Below are positions 23,143 through 37,192 of a stretch of 52,652 bases of DNA, piece by piece. The DNA is taken from the NCBI GenBank assembly GCA_000998135.1, contig LCCV01000012.1, forward strand, positions 1 through 52,652. The letters are read 5' to 3'. The notes under the pieces are model-generated. The model was not told the origin of the DNA. It made no database searches and saw only the letters and a program-made list of their open reading frames with translations. Position 1 is the first letter of the stretch, and each line of letters opens with the position of its first letter. The DNA comes from Parcubacteria group bacterium GW2011_GWA2_42_14. GTDB taxonomy: Bacteria > Patescibacteriota > Minisyncoccia > Sungbacterales > GWA2-42-14. The position numbers and the translations under genes are program-made.

Positions 23143-24090
23143 TTATAAATCCTTTCTTTCTTCTTCGGTAAGCGTCTGAAAAGAATCGGGGTGTTTAAGA
23201 TTAAAGCGCGTAACATGCTGAAAGTGGACCGGATCAAAAGCATCCTGGCGAATCTGCTGAATAAGCCCGCGAAATTCGGGCAAGTCCTTAACGGCAGTGG
23301 CGTTTACCCGGCGCGCCAAAGCCACATCAAACACAATTTTTGAACCGCGGCCAAAATTATTTCCCCTACCGTCGCTATAATACTGCGAAAGAGCCAAAAC
23401 TCGCGTTCCCAAGAATACCGCTTCTTCAAGGTCGTGAGTCACAAAAAATACGGTCATCTTAAATTCTTCCCATATCTCCAGAGTGAAAATCTGAAGATTT
23501 TCCCTGGTGCTGGGGTCAAGCGCCCCGAACGGCTCGTCCATCATCAAAATTTTTGGCTTCATAATTAAGGCCTGAACAATAGCAACCCGCTGCTGCATTC
23601 CACCGGAAAGCTCATGCGGATATTTGTCCTTGTGATTCTCAAGGCCAACCCTCTTAAGATATTCCATGGCCTCGTCACGCATTTCTTTGCGGCGGCTATA
23701 GCGCTCGAAAATTCCTGTAGAAAACCGCGGACCCAATAAAACATTGTCCAAAACTGAAAGATGGGGATAAAGCGGATATTTCTGATACACTATTCCGCGT
23801 TCCGGATTCGGATAGCCAACCGGCTTTCCTCCGACCATGATGGAACCGGATATCGGTCTTTCCTGGCCCAAGATTAACCGGAAAAGAGTTGACTTGCCGC
23901 AGCCAGACGGCCCGACCAGGGTGCAAAATTCTCCTTTGCTTACCGCCAAATCAATATCGTCCAGCACCATCTTATCGCCATAGGCCTTATGAACATTTTC
24001 AAGGTAAAGAAAATATGGCTTCGGATCTTTGACCATGATTTTCTCCTTAAACCTCTGCCACTTGATACCAGGGATATTTCCGGGAAACAA
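23143..24090 (-). CDS. ABC transporter ATP-binding protein, nitrate/sulfonate/taurine type
   Basis: GPSGCGKST, LSGGMQQRVAIVQAL, MMDEPFGALDP. Initiating Met may be internal at MVKDPKPYF. Confidence 0.9.
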   Translation of the reverse strand: MFPGNIPGIKWQRFKEKIMVKDPKPYFLYLENVHKAYGDKMVLDDIDLAVSKGEFCTLVGPSGCGKSTLFRLILGQERPISGSIMVGGKPVGYPNPERGIVYQKYPLYPHLSVLDNVLLGPRFSTGIFERYSRRKEMRDEAMEYLKRVGLENHKDKYPHELSGGMQQRVAIVQALIMKPKILMMDEPFGALDPSTRENLQIFTLEIWEEFKMTVFFVTHDLEEAVFLGTRVLALSQYYSDGRGNNFGRGSKIVFDVALARRVNATAVKDLPEFRGLIQQIRQDAFDPVHFQHVTRFNLKHPDSFQTLTEEERKDL

Positions 24091-24880
24091 ACTTTTTCAA
24101 AATCCAATCCATCGCGTATCCCAAAAAAGTAATCCATAAAACATACGGAATAATTATATCCATGGCCAGAAATCGGCGAACCAAATAAATCCTGTAACCC
24201 AAACCATCGGTTGAGGCAATGGCTTCGGCCGCAATCAGAAAAAGCCAGGCGGCACCCATTGACAACCGAACGGCATTAATCAAAACCGGCATCATTTGAG
24301 GCAGGGCCACACGATAAACAACGCCCAACTGTGAAGCGCCTAAAGTTAAGGCCTTGGTTATTTGTTCTCTTGGAATTTTTTCGGCTGTGCGCAAAATTGA
24401 AATGGCAATAACAAACGATGTTCCGATAAAAACCAGCACAACCTTTACTAATTCATCAACCCCAAATACGATAAAGAGAACAGGAAGAACTGCCAATGGC
24501 GGGATAATGGCTAAAAATATATTAAAGGGCAACAACAGCGCTTTCATTCCCGGAAACAATCCCATATTCAATCCGAGCAATAAGCCAAATACGGCCGCCA
24601 ACGACAATCCCGTACCAAGTCGCTTCAAACTGACAATCGTATCTTCAAGCATAAGATATTTGCCGGTTCGCTGGTCTTCGGTAAATGCCATTCTGTATAC
24701 CGATTCGACCATTTTGGTCGGAGACGGTAAAAACTTGTCGTCGGGGTTGTCGAGAAGCCGTATATGTGAAGCAATAAGATAAATGGCTATGAGAATAATG
24801 AACGGCAATAGTGTTAAAACTACTTTCAGCCACTTTGGCGGTTCGGCATGGAGTCCCCAAAACCACGCTGCACGCTTCAT
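24047..24880 (-). CDS. ABC transporter permease, SsuC/TauC-like
   Basis: Multiple TM helices; EAA-loop-like TKALTLGASQLGVVYRVALPQMMPVLINAVRLSMGAAW. Confidence 0.9.
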   Translation of the reverse strand: MKRAAWFWGLHAEPPKWLKVVLTLLPFIILIAIYLIASHIRLLDNPDDKFLPSPTKMVESVYRMAFTEDQRTGKYLMLEDTIVSLKRLGTGLSLAAVFGLLLGLNMGLFPGMKALLLPFNIFLAIIPPLAVLPVLFIVFGVDELVKVVLVFIGTSFVIAISILRTAEKIPREQITKALTLGASQLGVVYRVALPQMMPVLINAVRLSMGAAWLFLIAAEAIASTDGLGYRIYLVRRFLAMDIIIPYVLWITFLGYAMDWILKKFVSRKYPWYQVAEV

Positions 24881-24937
24881 TTCTTTTTCCTGTAAAAGAG
24901 CTTAAAATTGACTATTTACTATAATATCATAAAAACC

Positions 24938-24971
24938 TATCTTGTCAATAGTTACTAAAATTGACAAGATA
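24938..24971. promoter_or_regulatory. Divergent -35/operator palindrome
   Basis: TATCTTGTCAAT-N10-ATTGACAAGATA, perfect 12-bp inverted repeat; minus-strand TTGACA-N16-TATTAT. Confidence 0.65.
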
Positions 24972-25029
24972 AGTATTTTATGATACAAATAAAATGTTCT
25001 TTTTAAACTAAACAGGCCCAAATACCGGA

Positions 25030-26019
25030 ATGAAAACAGCGGAAAAACAGATTTTCGGAAAAACTTATTGTACTGATAACGCGCGAGACCAAACAAAACC
25101 TATTGAAACATGGTTTTCCAGTTCTCCGGAAGGCCTAATGCTTTTTATCATTTTTTATACCAAAGCATGCCGCTGGAATAAATGTTTGGGATGCAATCTG
25201 CCCTCGCTTTCGGCCTCAAGAACCATAGACTTCCGCGCGCTTATGTCGCAAATTGATTTTGTCTATCAAAAACCCGAGATTCTCTGTAAGCGCGCCAACA
25301 TCCGGCAGATTATCGTAAGCAACAACGGCTCTGTTCTTGATGAAGATACTTTTTCTTCAACCGCGCTAATTTATTTCGTCGCGAAAACGAACATGCTCGT
25401 TCCCAACCTATCGGTGCTCACTTTGGAAACAAGGATTGAATATGTTGATATTGAAGAGCTTGAATTTCTGGCCAGAGTTCTCAAGGAGGGTGAAACCCCT
25501 ACCACCCTTGAGATTGCCATCGGGCTTGAAGCATACGATGGCCATATTAGAAACAAGGTATTCAAAAAAGGGCTTTTGCTCAGCCAGATAGAACAATTGG
25601 CGGAAAAACTTGCCCGGCATAATTTCCGATTAAAATGTTACCTTATGCAAAAACCGGTTCCGGAAATGACAGACGAAGAAGCAATGGAAGACATTAAAAA
25701 TGCCATTGATTATCTGGACAAATTGGCCATGCGGTTCGGAATCAAGGTTAACATGCATTTGAATCCAACCTATGTTGCTACAGGAACCGCGCTGGAGGGG
25801 GCCTTTAAAAATAATAAATACCGGCCGCCGTATCTTAGCGACGTGACGCGAGCCGTGCGTTTTGCCAAGGGCAAAAATCTTTCAGTGTGCATTGGCTTGA
25901 ATGATGAAGGTCTTGCGGTTCCCGGCGGCTCATTCTTGCGGGAAGACGACGCTAAAATTGTTGAAATTCTCCATACTTTCAACAACACGCAGAACTTTGA
26001 ACTGCTCGAGGGAATATAA
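25030..26019 (+). CDS. Radical SAM protein resembling TIGR01210/RaSEA-type
   Basis: CRWNKCLGC (CxxxxCxxC) cluster motif; EIAIGLEAYDGHIRNKVFKKG and YRPPYLSDV segments. Confidence 0.75.
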   Translation: MKTAEKQIFGKTYCTDNARDQTKPIETWFSSSPEGLMLFIIFYTKACRWNKCLGCNLPSLSASRTIDFRALMSQIDFVYQKPEILCKRANIRQIIVSNNGSVLDEDTFSSTALIYFVAKTNMLVPNLSVLTLETRIEYVDIEELEFLARVLKEGETPTTLEIAIGLEAYDGHIRNKVFKKGLLLSQIEQLAEKLARHNFRLKCYLMQKPVPEMTDEEAMEDIKNAIDYLDKLAMRFGIKVNMHLNPTYVATGTALEGAFKNNKYRPPYLSDVTRAVRFAKGKNLSVCIGLNDEGLAVPGGSFLREDDAKIVEILHTFNNTQNFELLEGI

Positions 26020-26027
26020 CTAAAATA

Positions 26028-26055
26028 AAACCCCGGTTCTTCATGAACCGGGTTT
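26028..26055. terminator. Bidirectional terminator between convergent genes
   Basis: AAACCCCGGTTC-ttcat-GAACCGGGTTT. Confidence 0.75.
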
Positions 26056-26098
26056 ATTTATGTTTATTTTTTAAAAAAGAACTACCTCTTTAAAGAAC

Positions 26099-27196
26099 TT
26101 ACAGTTTGCCTTCGGCGGCAAGCTGCATGTAGGTTGAATCAAACCGGAACTTAACGTTCTTGGCATCTCCCATTACCGACTTGTCCGGGAACTGGATTCC
26201 CACGAAATCTTTGGACTTCTTTCCTTCGCCATAAAGCCCGTGGTCAAACGAAAACGTCCGCACGTACTCCATGGTATCTTTTAACTGCTTGCCCTTGGTA
26301 AAGGCAACTGCGTCAGCGGCCTTATAAAACATGGCCGTGGTCTTTAACTGCGCCTTAAACTGCGCAAGAGTCGCTCCGGAGTTCTTAGCCATGAATTCGG
26401 CAGAGGCGGCAGCAGTTTTGTCGTTAGCGGACATCACAGCCATCGTCTCGTACCAGGCGCCCGCCAGCGCTTTCTTCAGCTTGTCCGGGGCATCGGTTTT
26501 CACAACCAGCATATCAATGATTTCACCAGGAATCTGGGACGAATCAAACACCATTTTAGAACCCTTGGCCGTGCGAACTTCCATGAGCATTGGATTCCAG
26601 GTTACCACAGCGGCTCTCGAGTCAGAATCACTCAAAAATACATCCTGAATCTGGGCGTCGCTTGTATGCACAAGCGTCATATCTCTTTCGGTCAAACCCC
26701 GGCCCTCTTTATCAAGGGCGCGGGCCAAGAGGTAGTGCGACACCGACCCCTCAACAAGCTTGACTTTCCGGCCCTTCAAATCTCTGACATTTGAGCCGTT
26801 TTTCAGAACCACGCCATCATTGCCGTTGGAAAAATCTCCAACAACAATCGCGGTAGAATCCACTCCGCCAACTGCCGGCATAGTAAGCGTGTCCATGTTA
26901 GTCACGGTGACTCCATGGAACTGACCGCCGGTGTACTGGTTAATGGATTCAACATAATCCGTAAAAAACACCAGTTCAATCTCAATGCCATACTTCTGCG
27001 CCCACTTCTTGAGGATTCCTGACTGCTCCATATAACCGTACGGTTCCCAGCCAACGTAACGAGACCAGGCAATACGATACTTCTCCGGCTTAGCCGCTTC
27101 AGATAACTTGGGCATCGTGAAAACGCCAAAGAAAAATGTAACGGATAGCGCCAATGCCGCAATCGCTCCAGCAAAAACGAATTCTCTCCGCTCCAT
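26099..27196 (-). CDS. NMT1/TauA-like ABC solute-binding protein
   Basis: Signal/TM N-terminus; KYRIAWSRYVGWEPYGYMEQSGILKKWAQKYGIEIELVFF. Confidence 0.85.
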   Translation of the reverse strand: MERREFVFAGAIAALALSVTFFFGVFTMPKLSEAAKPEKYRIAWSRYVGWEPYGYMEQSGILKKWAQKYGIEIELVFFTDYVESINQYTGGQFHGVTVTNMDTLTMPAVGGVDSTAIVVGDFSNGNDGVVLKNGSNVRDLKGRKVKLVEGSVSHYLLARALDKEGRGLTERDMTLVHTSDAQIQDVFLSDSDSRAAVVTWNPMLMEVRTAKGSKMVFDSSQIPGEIIDMLVVKTDAPDKLKKALAGAWYETMAVMSANDKTAAASAEFMAKNSGATLAQFKAQLKTTAMFYKAADAVAFTKGKQLKDTMEYVRTFSFDHGLYGEGKKSKDFVGIQFPDKSVMGDAKNVKFRFDSTYMQLAAEGKL

Positions 27197-27296
27197 TTCC
27201 TTTTTCTCCTTTTGGCCGTCCGCCTTTGGCGGATTAGGCCTCCTTTGGTTGTTCCCCCCGAGCTTGTCGAGGGGTTGGGGTTGGGTTTCTTACAAA

Positions 27297-28493
27297 TTAC
27301 TCAACTTCAATCTGAAGAGAGGGGCGCACCTGATTGCCCTGCTCCATCTTCTTGATGGACTTTTCGGCCTCAACCGTCATCTGGTCAAGTTCGGAAATGG
27401 TACGGCCCATGCGGTCAAGCGCTTCAATCCTAAACCGCTCAACATCCTTCATGGCGGCATGAATATCGGCAAAAGCAGACTTGAGTTTATCCATGTCAAG
27501 CATGGCTTCCGAGGCCTGCTTATGAATTTCCACGCCCTGGGTTTTCAGAAGTTCGGCATTCTTGGCGATAAGGTCCGAAGTGGTTTTGTTTACTCCAATA
27601 ATCTTGTCCAGAACAATCCTTTGCTTGGCAAGAGCAAAAGCGGCTGTAACTGCAACATTCAAAGCATTGATGGTTACGGTATTGGCCCTATCCACTCCGC
27701 GAACAAGTTCGCGGTTATTCCTGATAATGATTTCATAAACCAGAATTCCCTGCTGATTCACTGCCAGCTGCTGCAACCTGTCCATGACGGTTTGGCGCAG
27801 AGTAAAGAGAAGCTCTTCCTGAAAGAATTTTTTCTTCTCTTCATCCGTTTCGGCCTGAATCTTTCCGGCAAGATTCTTATCAACCAGCTGCAAAAGTTTA
27901 ATCAGCTTTTCAAGCTTCAGAGTCAGTTCCCGCATCTTAATTTGTTCATCCTTAAGGGTTTTGTTGTCCCGAATGAGTTCAAACTTGCCCTTTTCCAGGG
28001 ATGCCACAATCGCGCCAATAACCGTTTGAGCGCTTTCGTATTTCGTGAAATAGCGCTTAAGGGCTTTTCCAGCGACCGGGGTTCTGCCCATAAGGCGCGA
28101 AAGCCATCCGGGCCCGAAATCCCACTTATGAGGGTCAAGCTCTTCCACCTGGATTTTAAGGTCAACCAGGGCGTTGGCAACATCTCCGCCATCAGCGCCC
28201 TTTTTGGCCAAAACCCTGACCTGCTCTTTTAGCATGGCGTTATTCATGAAATCAAGCTGTAATTTACGACCGGCGTTCTCAACTGCCATCCTCCGGTCTT
28301 CCCGTCCCCTTAAATCTTTAGGATTAATGGTTACGAGTTTTGTCGCGTATTCTTCAGCCTGTTTAACCAGTTCCGGGTCGGATTCGTCAACTTGAATCTT
28401 CTCCGGGTCAACCAAGTCAAGGTCTTCTCTTACCTTATTCGGGTCGGCAACCACCAATGGTTTTTCTGCCTGTATCTGAACCATCTCGGGCAT
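27297..28493 (-). CDS. TelA/KlaA family (toxic anion resistance) protein
   Basis: LGRTPVAGKALKRYFTKYES-like region (MGRTPVAGKALKRYFTKYESAQTVI), NRELVRGVDRANTVTINALNVAVTAAFALAKQ. Confidence 0.9.
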   Translation of the reverse strand: MPEMVQIQAEKPLVVADPNKVREDLDLVDPEKIQVDESDPELVKQAEEYATKLVTINPKDLRGREDRRMAVENAGRKLQLDFMNNAMLKEQVRVLAKKGADGGDVANALVDLKIQVEELDPHKWDFGPGWLSRLMGRTPVAGKALKRYFTKYESAQTVIGAIVASLEKGKFELIRDNKTLKDEQIKMRELTLKLEKLIKLLQLVDKNLAGKIQAETDEEKKKFFQEELLFTLRQTVMDRLQQLAVNQQGILVYEIIIRNNRELVRGVDRANTVTINALNVAVTAAFALAKQRIVLDKIIGVNKTTSDLIAKNAELLKTQGVEIHKQASEAMLDMDKLKSAFADIHAAMKDVERFRIEALDRMGRTISELDQMTVEAEKSIKKMEQGNQVRPSLQIEVE

Positions 28494-28561
28494 TCGTTTT
28501 CTCCTTTCCGGCTTTCTGCTTTTTGCAGAATAGCCAGCCCCTTCTTTTTTGGTAGTTCTTG

Positions 28562-29668
28562 CTACTCGGCATCCCGGGAATATTCCCGGGCCCGCTTGGC
28601 AAGCTCTTCAAGTTCCTTACGGGCTGTTTCCAAGTCAACCCTGGCTTCCGAACCTGTTTTCATTTCCATAGCAAGCTTAGCAGTTGTTTCATCAATTTGC
28701 GTCAGCGCTTCTTCATTGCGCGCCAAAAGTTTATTGACCAAATTCATCTGTTTATCATACAAATCCCTGCTCTTTTTAATAGCGGCGATTTCATCCAAAT
28801 CATCCTGTTTGGAACTTTTCTGTCGCTCGAATTCCTTAAGTTTTCGGGCAACATACTCCACATCAATAGCATCAGCGCTTCTCAAAAGATTCACAATATC
28901 GCGAAGGTTGTCTAGAGTAGCCAGATACACCTGTTCGGCCGTTCCGAGGTAGCGGGCGTAAGTAAGCTCGCCCTGATTGAGTTTTCGCGAAAGAATTTCC
29001 TGAAACGCCTCAAATTTTTCTTTCACCTGAACAAATTGTTCTTCGCCCTGGCGCGCGTATTCTTCCCCGCCTTTGATTTCCCTGCATTCGGCAAGTTCTT
29101 CCCGCAAGTTTTCAAGAAGAGAGGCGCGATACTTGGCCATCTCTTCTCTTAACTGCCGGATATACTTGTCGGCCAGAGCATCTTTGCGGACAAAGTAATT
29201 AATGGCCCAGCTTCCTGCTCCGATACCAAGCCCGCCCAAAGCCACGAAGGCAAAGACGGGGCTGATAAGGAACGCGGCAAGACCACCCGCAGCGCCCAAG
29301 GCAATCGGGTAAAGAGTGGTCCAATGCTGAATGGTTGAACTTTTAACAACCTTCCTGATTGCTTCCTGGGAAAAATCCGCAGGAGTCGGCGGTTTAATAG
29401 CCGCCTTTTTTGGGGGGCTAAGACCTGCTTTTTTTGCCGCTACTTCTTTTTGCGAACGAAGCGGTTTATCTTTACCCTTTGAGGGTCCGGAACCGCCAAT
29501 ACTACCGCCTTCCATGCCGCCATCATAAAATTTGTCCATTTTAAAGCATCCTCCTTTCTTGTAGATTTTTTTTATTTGTTTTATGTCTTTTAGAGATTCC
29601 TTTCCTCCCCACGAACTACCGCCACCATCTGTTTCGCCAAAACCGAAATTACCACAGCTATCATCCAT
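28562..29668 (-). CDS. Gly-rich N-terminus, two TM, coiled-coil protein (XpaC-like position)
   Basis: Start at 29668 preceded by AAAGGAGGTGGGCGTG; alternative in-frame start 29539 preceded by AAGAAAGGAGGATGCTTTAAA. Confidence 0.65.
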   Translation of the reverse strand: MDDSCGNFGFGETDGGGSSWGGKESLKDIKQIKKIYKKGGCFKMDKFYDGGMEGGSIGGSGPSKGKDKPLRSQKEVAAKKAGLSPPKKAAIKPPTPADFSQEAIRKVVKSSTIQHWTTLYPIALGAAGGLAAFLISPVFAFVALGGLGIGAGSWAINYFVRKDALADKYIRQLREEMAKYRASLLENLREELAECREIKGGEEYARQGEEQFVQVKEKFEAFQEILSRKLNQGELTYARYLGTAEQVYLATLDNLRDIVNLLRSADAIDVEYVARKLKEFERQKSSKQDDLDEIAAIKKSRDLYDKQMNLVNKLLARNEEALTQIDETTAKLAMEMKTGSEARVDLETARKELEELAKRAREYSRDAE

Positions 29669-29710
29669 CACGCCCACCTCCTTTGCTTCCTTCATTTTTT
29701 ATTTTCATAT

Positions 29711-31288
29711 TTAGTAAACTTCCGATACCAGAGAAATTTCCACGCGCGGAAGGCGGTAACTATAAGTCCGGCTGGATTCGCCTGGCTGTCTTGGCAGGGG
29801 CCGTTCTGAACCGAGTCCTACGGCATGAAGCCGATTGGCATCAACCGAATAAGTAACAACAAGGTAGCGGGCAACGCTTTCGGCGCGTTCCTGTGAGAGA
29901 TTCCGGTTCATAACCGGGTCTCCCTCAATACTGGTATGCCCCTTAATCACAACCCGAAAATTCGGATAATGCTTCAGGGTTTCGGCAACGCGGTCAATTT
30001 CTTCTTTACCCTGAATCCCCATGTCGGCCGTTCCTGATTGAAACGTAACCGGCTGGATTTTCAACGTTCCGATTTCACGAAGCGCGTTCCAGCCATCCTC
30101 GCCCAAAAGCGCAAACCTTGCTTCCAAAGAATTGGCCGGGGATGATTGTCCCGTATTTTTTGCTCCCGGCGTCGTAAATCCGGCAAAACCTTTGGTGAAA
30201 AGTTCCTTTATATATTCTTTTTCGGTCAAACGATACGGGTCTCCTTGAGGAATCGGATTTTTTGCAAAATCTCCGCTTTGCATCAGAATTCGTACGGTTG
30301 AATCAATCGTATCAACAAGGCCCTGGTCGGCATATCCGCCGTCAGACGAAATGCCAAACCACTCCTGGGCGTTTTCCGTAAGAGTTGCCCAATGAATGCC
30401 TTTTAGGAGCGAATCAACGGCGTTTGCGGAAAGTCCGCTTTGAGCCATGATTTCTTTTTTCAAAAATTCCGGCTCATCGCGATACATCTTCAAAACCTTG
30501 AAATAGGTTTCCAAAAGCATTTTAACGACTCCGCTGTTTTTTTCGGAAAACTTTCTATTCACCAACAAAATATCCACAATCAAACGTTCGGTCTGGTCCG
30601 TTCCTAAAAGTTTAACTATTCCTTTTTTAGCAAGCGCTTTGGAAACATCCGGCTCCCACAAAATAGCCACATCGGCCTTGCGGTCAAGCAGTTTCTTTAA
30701 GGCCTCTTCCGAACCGTTGGTTTCAATTCTTTTATCGCCCTTAGGCAAAAGTTCGGGCACATCAAAGTGTACGACCGCTGCCTTGCCAAGATGATGGCTT
30801 GGAGAGTTTGGAGTAAAGGCCACGCGAATATCAGCGCGGCCCTTAAGAGCATCCAGACTTGAAACTTTATCCTGCCAGGCCAAAATCGCGTCTCCGCCTT
30901 TTGATTTATCAATTACAACGCCTATAACTCCGGGAAAATCAAAGGGTGCCGCGTTTAAAATATATGAGTCAACCGTAGCCACGGCAAATTCAATCTCACC
31001 CTTATAAAGCTTTTCCATGCGTTTGGCATAGTCAGCTTTATCATCAAGGCACTCAAGCACCCAGCCGGAAACGCGCATCCGTTTTTTCATCTCGGATGAG
31101 CAAAGTGGAACATAGCCCGCCCAGTTATCCATGGCAATTTTAATTTTACCCTTGGTTTCCCGTGCATCGCTGGTTTTTTGCTGGCGGGTATCATCCCAAA
31201 TTGGCTTACCAAAGAAAAACCCCACAACTACAAGAGAAAAAATGATAAAAACAGCAATAGCGCTTTTAAGGTTTCCGCTCATACTCAA
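29711..31288 (-). CDS. Solute-binding protein fused to C-terminal OmpA-like domain
   Basis: KGKIKIAMDNWAGYVPL...VDILLVNRKFSEKNSG then FRVVIKGHTSIEGDPVMNRNLSQERAESVARYLV...LGSERPL. Confidence 0.85.
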   Translation of the reverse strand: MSMSGNLKSAIAVFIIFSLVVVGFFFGKPIWDDTRQQKTSDARETKGKIKIAMDNWAGYVPLCSSEMKKRMRVSGWVLECLDDKADYAKRMEKLYKGEIEFAVATVDSYILNAAPFDFPGVIGVVIDKSKGGDAILAWQDKVSSLDALKGRADIRVAFTPNSPSHHLGKAAVVHFDVPELLPKGDKRIETNGSEEALKKLLDRKADVAILWEPDVSKALAKKGIVKLLGTDQTERLIVDILLVNRKFSEKNSGVVKMLLETYFKVLKMYRDEPEFLKKEIMAQSGLSANAVDSLLKGIHWATLTENAQEWFGISSDGGYADQGLVDTIDSTVRILMQSGDFAKNPIPQGDPYRLTEKEYIKELFTKGFAGFTTPGAKNTGQSSPANSLEARFALLGEDGWNALREIGTLKIQPVTFQSGTADMGIQGKEEIDRVAETLKHYPNFRVVIKGHTSIEGDPVMNRNLSQERAESVARYLVVTYSVDANRLHAVGLGSERPLPRQPGESSRTYSYRLPRVEISLVSEVY

Positions 31289-31378
31289 TTCCTCCCTTTG
31301 ACGCGTATTTAGCGCGTATTTATTATTAAAATGTCAAGTTACACACTGCCTAAATATGTATCACGATAAAAACCGTTT

Positions 31379-31397
31379 GTCAAGGCACTCCCTTGAC
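31379..31397. promoter_or_regulatory. Divergent -35 palindrome
   Basis: GTCAAGG-cactc-CCTTGAC between oppositely oriented operons; plus-strand TTGACT-N17-TATAGT. Confidence 0.55.
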
Positions 31398-31468
31398 TTT
31401 TGATTTAAAATATAGTACTTTATTAAACAGGCATAAAATACGCTCTTTGAAAATTGGAGATATGAAAC

Positions 31469-33070
31469 ATGACAGATAAAGAATTTGAAGAATTTTTGGA
31501 CCAATCCGGCTTATCCCATTTAAAGCCGTTCATTTCCAATACGGCCGAGGTTGCTCAAAAACTTTCCCGTATACCAACGGGGGCTGCCAAAAATGTTCCA
31601 GAATTGTTGCAAGCGCTTCGCCAAGCCCAGGATAAAATCTCCGAACAAGATGGTGAAATAAAACGGCTTTCAGGTTTTCCTTTAGCGCACGCGGTAGTTA
31701 TTTTTAGCGATGAAACTTCCGGAGATTCTCCGGTATCGCCACACCCGCTTCTCATTATGCACGAAGGAAGAGTTATTGAAGTTCTGCCTCCGCCAAATAA
31801 AAAAATCAAAGCCGGCGACATTGTAAAAATTTCTCCCAAGACAACGCAGATTATTGATGTGGCCTCAGGTCCCCACCCTGGAGGAGTGGCGACAATTCAC
31901 CGCGTTCTGGACACTTTCTTAAGCGAGGCCAATTATCAGGGCGTTACGCGAATTGTCGTAAACGGAAAATTTGCCAACCAGCTTGAAGCCGGAGACCGCG
32001 TTAAAGTTGACTCAAGCGCTTCTGTTATTCTTGAACGTTTGTCGCGGGATGAAGACCGCTACCGTTTTTCCGAGGAAACAAATATTTCGTGGGATGATAT
32101 CGGGGGACTGGAAGAAGCGAAGGAACAATTGATTGAAGCGATTGAACTGCCCTATAAAGAACCGGAACTATTCGCTTTCTATAATAAAAAACCAATTAAA
32201 GGAATTATTCTTTACGGACCGCCGGGTTGCGGCAAAACAATGCTTGGCAAAGCGGCTTTTACCTCGCTTGCCCGCACTCACGACAATAAAGGCATTGCCA
32301 CGGGATTCTTGAGCATCAAAGGTCCGGAAATTCTTGACCGTTATGTGGGAGCGGCAGAGGCAACCATCAGGCAGATTTTCTGGCAAGCCAAGATGCATGA
32401 AAAAAAATACGGATACCCTGCCATCATCTTTATTGACGAAGCCGATGCTATTCTTTATGAGCGTGGAAGCGGACGAAGCTCGGATATTGAGCGAACGATT
32501 GTTCCCGCGTTTCTCGCGGAAATGGACGGGCTTTCCAAATCGGGCGCTATCGTGATTCTGGCAACAAACCGGCCGGATGTTCTTGACCGGGCCGTAATAC
32601 GAAACGGCAGAATGGACAGAAAAATCAAAGTCACGAGGCCAACCAGGGCAAGTGCCGCCACAATTTTTGAGCTCAACTTCAAAAAAATTCCTTTTGCGGA
32701 AAATACGAGCAAGCGTGAAATGGCCGAATTTGCTGTTAAAGAACTTTTCTCGGAAAAATACGCTCTTTATGAAATTACGCTTGACGGTTCCCGCGCCGGC
32801 GAAATCATCAAGTTCACGCTTTCCAATATGGTTAATGGCGCCATGATTGCTGGAATCGCCGACCAATCTTCCTCCGTAGCATTTCATAGGGATAGAAAAG
32901 AAAAAACCAAACAAGGCATTGTGAAAGATGACGTTATCAAAGCAACGGAAAGCATTTTCCGCGAGTCCCTGGATTTGGACCAAAATAAGGAACTGGATGA
33001 ATACATCCATGATTATCTTGAAAATGTGGAAATCGGCGGAATCAAAAAATTGAAGCAGACGATGAAATAG
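31469..33070 (+). CDS. ARC/Mpa-like AAA ATPase (coiled coil, OB-like, AAA)
   Basis: EETNISWDDIGGLEEAKEQLIEAIELPYKEPELF; GIILYGPPGCGKT; YVGAAEATIRQIFWQAK...FIDEADAILYERGSGRSSDIERTIVPAFLAEMDGL. Confidence 0.85.
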   Translation: MTDKEFEEFLDQSGLSHLKPFISNTAEVAQKLSRIPTGAAKNVPELLQALRQAQDKISEQDGEIKRLSGFPLAHAVVIFSDETSGDSPVSPHPLLIMHEGRVIEVLPPPNKKIKAGDIVKISPKTTQIIDVASGPHPGGVATIHRVLDTFLSEANYQGVTRIVVNGKFANQLEAGDRVKVDSSASVILERLSRDEDRYRFSEETNISWDDIGGLEEAKEQLIEAIELPYKEPELFAFYNKKPIKGIILYGPPGCGKTMLGKAAFTSLARTHDNKGIATGFLSIKGPEILDRYVGAAEATIRQIFWQAKMHEKKYGYPAIIFIDEADAILYERGSGRSSDIERTIVPAFLAEMDGLSKSGAIVILATNRPDVLDRAVIRNGRMDRKIKVTRPTRASAATIFELNFKKIPFAENTSKREMAEFAVKELFSEKYALYEITLDGSRAGEIIKFTLSNMVNGAMIAGIADQSSSVAFHRDRKEKTKQGIVKDDVIKATESIFRESLDLDQNKELDEYIHDYLENVEIGGIKKLKQTMK

Positions 33071-33080
33071 ATTATTATGA

Positions 33081-33101
33081 CCGCGCACCAGAGGTGCGCG
33101 G
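33081..33101 (+). terminator. Terminator of the ARC-like gene
   Basis: CCGCGCACC-aga-GGTGCGCGG followed by TATTTTATTTT. Confidence 0.75.
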
Positions 33102-33210
33102 TATTTTATTTTCATCCGCAATTCACCCCCGCAGCAAGTCTAATGACCCATAATGACCAACGGATTACGGCCTACGGCCGCAGGGAATTCCTGCAGACGA
33201 AATTAAAATA

Positions 33211-33242
33211 TCCCTGCTATGTGCTTAAGCGCATAGCAGGGA
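33211..33242 (+). terminator. Second terminator-like hairpin
   Basis: TCCCTGCTATGTGC-ttaa-GCGCATAGCAGGGA followed by A-rich sequence; long palindrome. Confidence 0.4.
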
Positions 33243-33331
33243 TAAAAAAAAGAACTTACGATTAGATATTTAGCCCTGTGAGAGTTTATTATTCAAACTT
33301 GTAGAGAATATATCTAAAAAGGAAATAAAAA

Positions 33332-33352
33332 AGGAGTTCATAATGAACTCCT
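33332..33352 (-). terminator. Terminator of the VWA operon
   Basis: Reverse strand AGGAGTTCA-tta-TGAACTCCTTTTTTATTT. Confidence 0.7.
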
Positions 33353-33356
33353 ACTG

Positions 33357-34142
33357 CTACTGCTTTTCAAAAACCGTCGCGTCAAATACCGGGGACTCCG
33401 CCAACACCTCTTTAAGTCCTTGGCGGAGCGAATCCAGGTCGCGCGCTTCCTGGTAAGTCACCCTTCCAGGCTGATTCAGAGAATGCTTTTCACCGATGCA
33501 AAATCCGATTGTTGTAAGAGTTACCGGAGAATTCTTTAACATGTAGTTGACGATTGATGTGGGGTCTTCTCCCATATTAGCTTCGCCGTCGGTAACCACC
33601 GCCATACGGTAAACACCGTAACCGAGTTGCCGGCGCGCCTGCTCTTCAATTTTCTCGTAAGCAAGCTTGATGGCGCTGTAAAGCGGAGTTCCGCCGTCAG
33701 CTTTGAGATTTCCTATCGCTCTCACAAAATCTTCGCGATTCTTCGGGCCCGAACCAAGAGGCACCACTTCACGAATTCCGTCTCTTGAAAAAATGAGAAG
33801 GCCGAGATTGGCGCCGGCAGGCACGGTCTTGGCAAACTCCATAAGGGCTTGTTTCCCCACAACCACTTTTTCCTGATTACTTCCGCACGCTTTTTGGCCC
33901 ATACTTCCCGAATCGTCAACAACAATGTAATAATTTTCAACCAAAACATTTTCTGCCAACTGAACTTCTTTGCCCTTAGGCGCGGGAGTTGGCCAAGCCG
34001 TAACATCTTGAAATTGACCCGACAATTTTCCGTTTGAATCAACGGAACCGCTATTGGTTGATTGAGTCGGCGGAGAATCGCATCCCCATACCGCTAAAGA
34101 TACTGCTAAAGCGAAAATTGGGAGAAGGATAATCTTTTTCAT
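33357..34142 (-). CDS. VWA-domain lipoprotein
   Basis: Lipobox-like LAVWGC; MIDAS YYIVVDDSGSMG; GGTPLYSAIKLA; VVTDGEAN. Confidence 0.88.
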   Translation of the reverse strand: MKKIILLPIFALAVSLAVWGCDSPPTQSTNSGSVDSNGKLSGQFQDVTAWPTPAPKGKEVQLAENVLVENYYIVVDDSGSMGQKACGSNQEKVVVGKQALMEFAKTVPAGANLGLLIFSRDGIREVVPLGSGPKNREDFVRAIGNLKADGGTPLYSAIKLAYEKIEEQARRQLGYGVYRMAVVTDGEANMGEDPTSIVNYMLKNSPVTLTTIGFCIGEKHSLNQPGRVTYQEARDLDSLRQGLKEVLAESPVFDATVFEKQ

Positions 34143-34165
34143 GGCTTTTTCTCCCGTCCTCTTCC

Positions 34166-35914
34166 TTAAAGCGGCTTAAACGCGGAAGATTCGGCTTCAA
34201 TCTGGATAATACGGAATTCCACGCGCATATTATTTCGCCATTCCTGCTCGGTCTTAGGGGCGCACGGGTCATTTCCGCACATTCCGTTTCTGGCCTTATC
34301 AATACCGTGTCCCACGACCACAAACTGCGACGCGTCTACCGTAATGCCTCTTTTCCTGGCATAAGCAATGACGCTGTCGCGAACGGCATTTGCCCGAGCC
34401 ATGCTCAAATTCTTGGCCGCCTGTCTGGTTCTGGATAAAACAACATCCGATTCACCGGACTTCTTGCTCTTAAGATAACCCAAGGGATCGCTATGCCCTT
34501 CAACAGTAATGACCGCTCCTCCATAAGTAGCGGCAAGATCCACCACCTTAGCAAACGATTCAGCGTAAGATTCAAACGGAAAAGAATTTTGGTTCGGCTG
34601 AAAATAAACTTCAAAGGAGAAAAGCTCACCTTCGGTCAAAGTTCCCTGTTTCTGCTTTTTATCAATAACTTTGGCAACTTCGTCTTTTTCAAACTTCGGC
34701 GCTTCAACACCGGCCACATCAGAAAGTCCGGCCTTGAGCCGATTATAGTCCCACTTGGCATGGTCCAAAGAAGTGCGCTTAGACAAAAGCCCGATAGCGG
34801 CAAAAGCGTTCTGGATTTCGGCAGTGCGTTTGTCAAAGTTACGCAGGTAATTAGGGTCCCCGAAAAACTTCACGTTTCCGCGATATCCCACAAATTCAGC
34901 ATCGCCATAAAGCCCTTCAGCGTCAGCTACGGCTTTATCGCTATCAAGAAGAATATCGGCAACCGCGGTAAATGCCTTCTTATATTCAACCGCGCGAGAA
35001 CTCTTATTCTTTACTAAACCCCGAAGCGATTCTTCGGCAATGAGCAATCCGTGAAAAAACTTTTCCACTTCGACCCTATGCGCCTGAAAATAATCGGCCC
35101 TAACCGCGTAAACGTCGGCAATAATGCGGTTGGCGGTCTTGGTGGTAAGAAGAATCTTGGCTCCCTTAACCGATTTTTCCGCGCCGGTGCCGACAGCACC
35201 GCCCGATGTTAATTCCGTGGCATCGGGGATAATAACCATAGCGGCATCAACGCTTTTATCATTCCGGAGGGCCGCGGCCGGAGTATCATCCGTGCCGGTA
35301 AGGTCCTTGGTCCATTTAATGGTTACGTCTTTCATGGAAAGACCGGCATCGGCCAGAATCTTTCCCAAATAATCAACATGCGGGCCATATGCCTGAACGG
35401 CGATAGTTTTGCCCTTAAGATCTTTCGCGGTTCTGATATAAGGATTACCCTTGACATCAAATGCCCGAACCGTCAAAGTGTCTCCGCCGTTTGATTCGGT
35501 CATTTGATAAACAACCACGGGTCTGGTTCTAGGGTCGCGATGCAAAACTTCAACGGCCATGTTAATCATTCCCATGGTGCCGCGAAGATAGGGTGTTTCT
35601 CCGCGCATATACATCTCAACTTGTTTCTTGAAATCATCTTCGCGGAAAAGTTTGAAATTCAGTCCTTCTTTTTCAAAAATGCTTCCTTTGACCGTGGTGC
35701 GCGAGTTGCCGTTGGCATAAATAGTGGCAATATCGCCCCCCCAGGTAATTAAGGGCAATTGAACCGGACCACCGGTTTTTACTTCGCCAACCTGGGTATT
35801 GATGGCTTGAGACAAAGGCGGAGCATCAACGTACTTTATAGCAGGAGCCGCAAAAACTCCACCAACCAAACTTATGCAAACAACAAGTGCCGTAAGAATT
35901 ACCAATTTTCTCAT
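34166..35914 (-). CDS. NMT1-like solute-binding protein fused to C-terminal OmpA-like domain
   Basis: Signal peptide; PYIRTAKDLKGKTIAVQAYGPHVDYLGKILADAGL; C-terminal ITVEGHSDPLGYLKSKKSGESDVVLSRTRQAAKNLSMARANAVRDSVI. Confidence 0.85.
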   Translation of the reverse strand: MRKLVILTALVVCISLVGGVFAAPAIKYVDAPPLSQAINTQVGEVKTGGPVQLPLITWGGDIATIYANGNSRTTVKGSIFEKEGLNFKLFREDDFKKQVEMYMRGETPYLRGTMGMINMAVEVLHRDPRTRPVVVYQMTESNGGDTLTVRAFDVKGNPYIRTAKDLKGKTIAVQAYGPHVDYLGKILADAGLSMKDVTIKWTKDLTGTDDTPAAALRNDKSVDAAMVIIPDATELTSGGAVGTGAEKSVKGAKILLTTKTANRIIADVYAVRADYFQAHRVEVEKFFHGLLIAEESLRGLVKNKSSRAVEYKKAFTAVADILLDSDKAVADAEGLYGDAEFVGYRGNVKFFGDPNYLRNFDKRTAEIQNAFAAIGLLSKRTSLDHAKWDYNRLKAGLSDVAGVEAPKFEKDEVAKVIDKKQKQGTLTEGELFSFEVYFQPNQNSFPFESYAESFAKVVDLAATYGGAVITVEGHSDPLGYLKSKKSGESDVVLSRTRQAAKNLSMARANAVRDSVIAYARKRGITVDASQFVVVGHGIDKARNGMCGNDPCAPKTEQEWRNNMRVEFRIIQIEAESSAFKPL

Positions 35915-36400: not shown

Positions 36401-37192
36401 TTATATTCCCGTTTCCAGTCCTTCTTCCTCCTCGTCTTCCTCTTTATCTGCTTCTTTTTTTCTGTTCTCCCAGGCCAGCTTAAATAAACTTTTTATAGTT
36501 TCGCTTATCTCATCGGATTCAATTATGACCCCCATCATATCGCCTTTTAAAGATGCCATGCCAACCCGGTTGGCATAAATAAAAATATTGCTCCAAAAAG
36601 GAAATTTTTCCTGTTCAACAAACAATTCTTCCGCCATCTCTAAAGGATTTTTAAATCTACCCGCTGTTCTCGTGTAAATTGATTTTGATTTTATGCCCAG
36701 TTCTTGCCGCTTTTTGTCAAAACCGGTTTTTTCAAGAATGGAAAAAGTTTTGGGAAGAAGGTCGGCGTTATAAATCTCAAGAATTTCTTTGGTTTCAGAA
36801 CCCAAAATGTCTTCGGCTATTTTTTCAAACATAGCTTCTCCTTCATAAAATTGAATTTTGGGTTTGCCCGGGGCGACGTTATAGACCGATTTTAGTTCCG
36901 GCAGAATTTCCCTGATTTCCCGCTCCCTATTTTCAATCTCTTGCCTTTCTTTTTTTAAAATTTCCAATATTATATCGGGGCTTTGGGCGACAAAATAATT
37001 TCTTTTGCCGACTTTCAACGGCCTTACCAGTCCCCTTTTTTCAAGTTCCGTTATCATAACATAAGTGGTTGTCCGGTTTATTCCGGCTTTTTTGGCAATA
37101 TCCTGAATAGACGCCTTGCCCAATTCCAAAGCAGCCAAATATACTTTGGCTTCTTTATCGGATAGGCCGATTTTTTTTAATTCATTAAGCAT
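36401..37192 (-). CDS. TrmB-like HTH transcriptional regulator
   Basis: LKKIGLSDKEAKVYLAALELGKASIQDIAKKAGINRTTTYVMITELEKRGLV. Confidence 0.88.
   Translation of the reverse strand: MLNELKKIGLSDKEAKVYLAALELGKASIQDIAKKAGINRTTTYVMITELEKRGLVRPLKVGKRNYFVAQSPDIILEILKKERQEIENREREIREILPELKSVYNVAPGKPKIQFYEGEAMFEKIAEDILGSETKEILEIYNADLLPKTFSILEKTGFDKKRQELGIKSKSIYTRTAGRFKNPLEMAEELFVEQEKFPFWSNIFIYANRVGMASLKGDMMGVIIESDEISETIKSLFKLAWENRKKEADKEEDEEEEGLETGI

Follow-up and report, generated by a model that had tools for sequence, protein, structure and literature searches.

Positions 23143 to 35914 of contig LCCV01000012.1 from Parcubacteria group bacterium GW2011_GWA2_42_14 (genome of 1.24 Mb, 95% complete) hold a ten-gene cluster in which an ATP-binding cassette (ABC) transporter is encoded together with substrate-binding proteins (SBPs) fused to OmpA-like domains, a TelA family protein and an AAA+ ATPase. 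The whole stretch of 52,652 nucleotides that was analysed is referred to as the window. All ten open reading frames (ORFs) were found at the coordinates given by the original prediction, an annotation made from the letters alone, and its family calls held in the ORF check and in profile searches. Eight genes form a minus-strand run (SBP-OmpA2, VWA, SBP-OmpA1, two-transmembrane (two-TM) helical protein, TelA, soluble SBP, permease and ATPase). The genes for an ARC-like ATPase and a radical SAM protein lie inside this run on the plus strand.

SBP-OmpA2 (34166..35914, minus strand), the hallmark gene, encodes a signal peptide, an NMT1/SsuA-type SBP domain and a C-terminal OmpA-like domain (weak OmpA match). 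SBP-OmpA1 (29711..31288, minus strand) combines an N-terminal membrane anchor and an SsuA-type SBP domain with a canonical OmpA peptidoglycan-binding domain (57 bits). The VWA protein (33357..34142, minus strand; VWA match of 46 bits) has a lipobox-like signal (VWGC) and a complete MIDAS motif (DDSGS, GGTP, VTDGE). The soluble SBP (26099..27196, minus strand) matched TIGR03427 with 490 bits (cut-off 334). The ABC permease (24047..24880, minus strand) was assigned to the NitT/TauT type (BPD) by profile match, and the ABC ATPase (23143..24090, minus strand; SsuB/TauB/NtrD type) contains intact Walker A/B and LSGG signature motifs, its likely start being an ATG 18 codons in.

The TelA family protein (27297..28493, minus strand; PF05816 with 204 bits, gathering score 30) is helical and has neither signal nor TM segment. 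The two-TM helical membrane protein (28562..29695, minus strand) matches no known family. It had been predicted as a coiled-coil TM gene at 28562-29668; the gene stands, with 29695 as a possible start instead of 29668. Assignment of this protein to XpaC was rejected, as 28 family members gave no significant Pfam match with XpaC among the families listed. On the plus strand, the ARC/Mpa-like AAA+ ATPase (31469..33070; pup_AAA with 306 bits, cut-off 505) is a candidate Vps4-like partner, and the RaSEA-like radical SAM protein (25030..26019; TIGR01210 with 113 bits, under the cut-off; CX4CX2C) is regarded as accessory. A gene for a TrmB-like transcription regulator (window 36401-37192), a possible regulator, is situated just 5' of the operon start.

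For comparison with other genomes, approximately 85,000 bacterial and archaeal species genomes were scanned with an SBP-OmpA2 profile, which yielded 136 relatives, and the best 80 loci were kept. Genes per locus were counted by single-sequence searches in the 55 kept loci with at least 8.5 kb of downstream sequence. All 55 carry SBP-OmpA2 by search design. VWA was present in 55 and adjoined SBP-OmpA2 each time. SBP-OmpA1 was detected in 53 loci and the two-TM protein in 44; 40 loci had permease and ATPase, 39 the soluble SBP and 29 TelA. With iterated profiles, the two-TM protein was detected in 64 of the 80 named-genome loci. Carriers belong to Desulfobacterota (cable bacteria included), Gamma- and Betaproteobacteria, Myxococcota, Acidobacteriota, Verrucomicrobiota, Planctomycetota, Poribacteria, KSB1, Chloroflexi, Bacteroidota and other CPR lineages, and gene content and order recur in more than ten phyla. 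The original prediction had made its case depend on the co-occurrence of these families in other genomes, and this proved widespread and ordered.

Within the window's own phylum the cluster is rare. It was detected in 5 of 55 relatives of the source genome (3 of 6 in the same family), and among 380 genomes sampled across the phylum the one strong match was the window itself. TelA was found in exactly those 5 relatives that carry SBP-OmpA2 (approximately 3e-7 by simple counting, relatedness ignored). The closest homologue of the window's SBP-OmpA2 was that of Candidatus Sungbacteria/Sungiibacteriota (69% identity). Because the cluster shares 60% identity with Desulfobacterota and the GC content of the cluster (0.463) is slightly above that of its flanks (0.431 and 0.403), the cluster is likely to have arrived in this lineage horizontally.

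The large Vibrio plasmids pAM7 and pSEA2 also bear the gene set. On these plasmids (240-320 kb; L006, L091) the cluster is next to a gene for a replication initiator with an RctB domain, a type that also serves chromosome 2 of Vibrio. A second copy of the two-TM helical gene was seen in relative G002 (L103 2846-3709), a few kb past the cluster. On a Sphaerotilus plasmid (L005 8875-12924), TelA adjoins VWA and a hypothetical protein without ABC genes, which is another TelA-VWA arrangement.

The two plus-strand genes belong to the cluster, since both recur at the locus elsewhere and their phylogenetic profiles agree. The ARC-like gene is present at the cluster in three relatives of the window (L008, L011, L103), and in L052, L053 and L062 it separates the SBP-OmpA1 and two-TM genes and has the same orientation as the operon. 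The radical SAM gene adjoins the core or lies close to it in ten loci, which belong to several phyla; among the 55 relatives it occurred in 4 of the 5 cluster carriers and in no non-carrier, in two cases on another contig. The same four relatives have an ARC paralogue (262-323 bits) at the cluster; other relatives have a true proteasomal ATPase instead. This link is less strict for the ARC-like gene, because ARC-like pieces of 325-335 bits were also present in the fragmented relative G001 and on a second contig of G003. A function of the ARC-like protein as proteasome activator was rejected on account of its score below the family cut-off and of the source genome, in which no 20S proteasome subunit was found. 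The radical SAM protein that travels with the cluster is a bacterial homologue of RaSEA, the radical SAM archaeosine enzyme. The amidine group that RaSEA makes is chemically akin to guanidine; this likeness is possibly a coincidence.

In loci without TelA, a coiled-coil protein of 275-280 amino acids (aa) is encoded at the same position. TelA was found in 39 named-genome loci, the PspA-like coiled coil in 14 and both together in none. In a phylogeny built from 57 SBP-OmpA2 proteins, the TelA/coiled-coil label switches at least three times across well-supported branches. An AlphaFold2 model of the PspA-like protein consists of an N-terminal helix, a long helical hairpin (39-104, 108-192; pLDDT approximately 90) and a further helix; this modelled helix layout is that of PspA/Vipp1. 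The top match of the model in the PDB was Vipp1 (6zvr; 247 columns, E 0.012), with more Vipp1 entries among the matches. Pfam and PDB sequence profiles returned nothing significant for this protein, and its putative PspA identity is based on the predicted fold and on a published operon. The latter support is independent, as PspA/TM-Snf7 was reported in like operons by Ravi et al. 2024 (PMC11237479). In the source genome no PspA_IM30 match was found anywhere, and TelA occupies the slot.

What we propose for TelA and the PspA-like protein is functional exchange (slot equivalence) rather than common descent. In Lactococcus and Listeria, envelope stress induces telA genes or is countered by them: the link was made in a Lactococcus study of CesSR (PMC3139573), and a Listeria mutant of lmo1967 (TelA) is described as more susceptible to nisin in a passage of PMC12791056 that cites this result. 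Such an envelope-stress link fits a membrane-bound assembly remodelled by an AAA protein. The repeated exchange of TelA, a widespread family, with a PspA/Vipp1-like protein, and the AAA+ ATPase alongside, would give a vaguely defined stress gene a hypothesis of membrane remodelling that can be put to the test.

At 32 of the 80 loci an AAA+ ATPase is encoded no more than 4 kb from the core, and most of these proteins are of three kinds: ARC-like, Ycf46-like (Pfam AAA and AAA_lid_3; named here after the architecture of Ycf46) and a protein of approximately 590 aa with one recognised C-terminal AAA domain. The last kind was found in nearly all PspA-like loci with enough sequence. ESCRT-III is paired with the AAA ATPase Vps4, by which it is remodelled. 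Because AAA+ genes recur at the loci and this pairing is known, the analogy suggests that the AAA protein remodels the protein in the TelA slot; for the PspA form, AAA remodelling was likewise proposed by Ravi et al. 2024 (PMC11237479). The original prediction had assumed a peptidoglycan-anchored uptake or sensing complex with an AAA-VWA module. The anatomy fits such a complex with an AAA module, but joint action of AAA and VWA is less plausible, because the lipoprotein-like signal of the VWA protein should place it outside the membrane; the AAA protein more plausibly acts on the cytoplasmic TelA slot. In ten loci (L022, L025, L027, L036, L058, L009, L013, L015, L020, L023) the Ycf46-like gene is located directly beside SBP-OmpA2, mostly divergently, and this neighbourhood may bear on the role of Ycf46.

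Phages carry related copies. In the huge phage LR756511 (595 kb) the eight genes follow the cluster order, the PspA-like protein being in the slot, and this arrangement was also found on a viral contig of 436 kb and on three more. Contigs from IMG/VR are viral by prediction; Bacillus phage G is an isolate. Its genes gp243-gp250 encode permease, ATPase, the PspA-like TM protein gp247 and two SBP-OmpA proteins, and gp247 matched the slot protein by profile with E 3.5e-6. Permease, ATPase, gp246, gp247 and SBP-OmpA gp249 (L004 10929-18014 in phage G) are kept in 25 of 25 contigs of the phage G group (L116-L140, phage G included), and the block is apparently a core phage function. TelA was absent from every phage copy found, and neither VWA nor TelA nor a soluble SBP was detected in the phage G block. 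Matches in Acinetobacter phage MD-2021a (CAKLQF/CAKLQH) were discounted as probable bacterial contigs, because these records contain several OmpA proteins and an amino acid transport SBP.

The three SBPs had been predicted as NMT1/SsuA-type proteins. Their identity as SBPs was borne out, but in place of the generic ligand class the soluble SBP suggests another, as it belongs to TIGR03427, which is linked to guanidine/urea carboxylases. Its closest plasmid relatives (50-57% identity) are encoded with urea/guanidine carboxylase, UAAP1/2 and allophanate hydrolase, with the same permease and ATPase beside them. Guanidine-carboxylase operons with a homologous triplet were found in Azospirillum, Rhizobium, Asticcacaulis, Peteryoungia and Pantoea; carboxylase operons of such kind import and assimilate guanidine (reviewed in PMC12186494). 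In the SBP tree (midpoint root), the SBPs from such operons fall into a single group placed among those of the clusters (support of 72/50, which applies to the operon group only), and phage and planctomycete SBPs are placed on the far side. Identical in both SBP groups are W44, Y47, W50, N126, D127, S151-S153, Y155, W200-P202, E225, D228 and W248, of which D127 and D228 are conserved even in both SBP-OmpA families. These conserved motif residues, taken from sequence comparison, are here called pocket-like.

The family match, the operon relatives and these residues together point to a guanidinium-like ligand of the soluble SBP. Guanidine catabolism in the source genome was considered and rejected: neither a CT_C_D domain (carboxylase) nor an arginase-family enzyme was found in the source genome, the cluster included, and no guanidine riboswitch within the window. 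A nutritional role of a guanidine-type ligand is thus doubtful. Since the guanidine-using enzymes tested are absent and the window has no riboswitch, the compound probably acts as a signal or a stressor, or it is put to use in some other way. The NCBI name 'putative urea ABC transporter substrate-binding protein' is put on envelope-cluster SBPs without urea or guanidine enzymes nearby (L006, L091 and others). The TIGR03427 model mixes two gene contexts. These relations suggest that the guanidine importer family and the envelope system have a common origin, and that many 'putative urea ABC transporter' proteins are part of something else.

Directly supported are the gene set and order, the exchange of TelA with the PspA-like protein, the recurring AAA+ ATPase and the sister relation of the SBP to those of guanidine operons. 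With chances that we consider about even, the cluster encodes an ABC/SBP complex that is anchored to the wall and coupled to a membrane-remodelling pair of the ESCRT-III/Vps4 kind. SBP, permease and ATPase would form a NitT/TauT-type ABC importer whose substrate, a small cation, is probably guanidinium or closely related to it. Two more SBP domains, judged from their domain arrangement, would be fixed to peptidoglycan via OmpA, one protein being membrane-anchored and one secreted, and the metal site of the VWA protein may help to hold this outer assembly. On the inner side, TelA and the two-TM protein would form a membrane-bound helical assembly that does the PspA/Vipp1 (ESCRT-III-like) job of the sister systems. 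Slot exchange and recurrence suggest that the ARC-like AAA+ ATPase would remodel the TelA assembly as Vps4 does ESCRT-III. Ligand occupancy or wall strain at the anchored SBPs could gate transport and membrane reinforcement. A more far-reaching version is offered tentatively: TelA would be a functional PspA/ESCRT-III counterpart that assembles on membranes under AAA+ control and is governed by wall-anchored, guanidinium-sensing SBPs, and the PspA-type version of huge phages would keep the host envelope sound in infection.

Several observations weigh against a coupled transport and remodelling complex. The Vipp1 matches are weak (E 0.01-0.1), and unrelated coiled coils score nearly as high. Homology of TelA to the PspA-like family was rejected at a probability below 1% in profile comparison, and structure did not rescue it, the TelA model being poor (pLDDT 62) and without usable fold match. 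In 48 of the 80 loci the 4 kb around the core yielded no AAA gene, although many contigs are cut. The absence of CT_C_D and arginase-family enzymes from the source genome makes a nutritional role doubtful. A chance neighbourhood of unrelated genes could be read from the two genes on the opposite strand and is as good as discarded: the order is kept in dozens of loci from many phyla and phylogenetic profiles match, and chance is excluded because gene content and order recur in more than ten phyla and TelA tracks SBP-OmpA2 across relatives. Very improbable, too, is a tellurite or toxic anion resistance locus, for which the Pfam name of TelA is the argument; no ter-type genes were seen among the conserved neighbours, and the ABC part has importer polarity.

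Two further explanations deserve more weight, and both appear rather unlikely to a similar degree. The cluster might be a dedicated scavenging importer, in which SBPs anchored to the wall enrich a nitrogen compound in short supply (guanidine or similar) close to the permease, and TelA, AAA and VWA proteins serve as transporter assembly factors. The SBP-permease-ATPase triplet is the same as in guanidine-carboxylase operons, with identical pocket-like residues, but the genome lacks a CT_C_D carboxylase and an arginase-family guanidinase, and the window a guanidine riboswitch. Moreover, phage G-type modules retain permease, ATPase, SBP-OmpA and the PspA-like protein without a separate soluble SBP, and other guanidine importers have no adjoining TelA or PspA partners. 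BceAB-type transporters signal damage through ABC proteins. On this model, the cluster might instead be an envelope stress sensor without net transport, in which the ABC proteins relay damage to wall or membrane that the SBP-OmpA proteins have detected, and TelA or the PspA-like protein repairs the membrane. This would agree with the envelope-stress link of TelA, the PspA-like partner, the OmpA domains and the presence of the module on phages, whose infection stresses the membrane. Yet permease and ATPase resemble ordinary TauC/SsuC-type importers with intact ATPase motifs, and no regulator gene was seen conserved with the cluster.

The nearest published system is the operon described by Ravi et al. 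2024 (mSystems, PMC11237479), in which PspA and TM-Snf7 occur with ABC ATPase, permease, PBPB-OmpA and an AAA+ protein with an inactive N-terminal copy. This operon (example OGG56892.1) is like the present cluster in that ABC ATPase, permease, SBP-OmpA and AAA+ are encoded beside a membrane-remodelling helical protein, and the same coupling of solute transport and membrane remodelling was proposed. It differs in that the slot here is taken by TelA, the AAA protein is ARC-like (in sister loci of approximately 590 aa with only the C-terminal AAA domain recognised), two SBP-OmpA proteins and a third, soluble SBP are present, and VWA, two-TM helical and radical SAM proteins are added. The main text of that paper treats the PspA form in two sentences; TelA, VWA, a third SBP, guanidine and phage links are absent from it. 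Open-licence literature on TelA with OmpA, VWA, SBP or ABC contained nothing on the cluster, and on TelA-XpaC envelope-stress papers only. The general idea thus has precedent, and the original prediction of an undescribed system is narrowed by this operon to the TelA form; neither that form nor the occurrence of the system in phages seems to have a published description.

The importer of guanidine-carboxylase operons (TIGR03427 SBP, permease, ATPase, uca, atzF, UAAP1/2) has a homologous triplet and the same conserved pocket-like residues, whereas the cluster is without carboxylase, hydrolase and riboswitch and adds OmpA-fused SBPs, VWA and TelA. In the XpaC-TelA pair of Firmicutes (Lactococcus CesSR regulon; Listeria lmo1966-1967), TelA is encoded beside a helical-region membrane protein, as here, but the two-TM partner of the cluster matches no Pfam family significantly, and the ABC, SBP-OmpA and VWA genes are extra. 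Mpa/ARC proteasomal ATPases are the closest AAA family by profile (306 bits), but the match is below the cut-off and a 20S proteasome is absent here. In Bacillus phage G (gp243-gp250) one block likewise joins permease and ATPase with SBP-OmpA proteins and a helical protein, here of the PspA-like kind; in relatives of phage G and other huge phages, the module would make up a machine for transport across the envelope and support of the membrane that the phage itself encodes.

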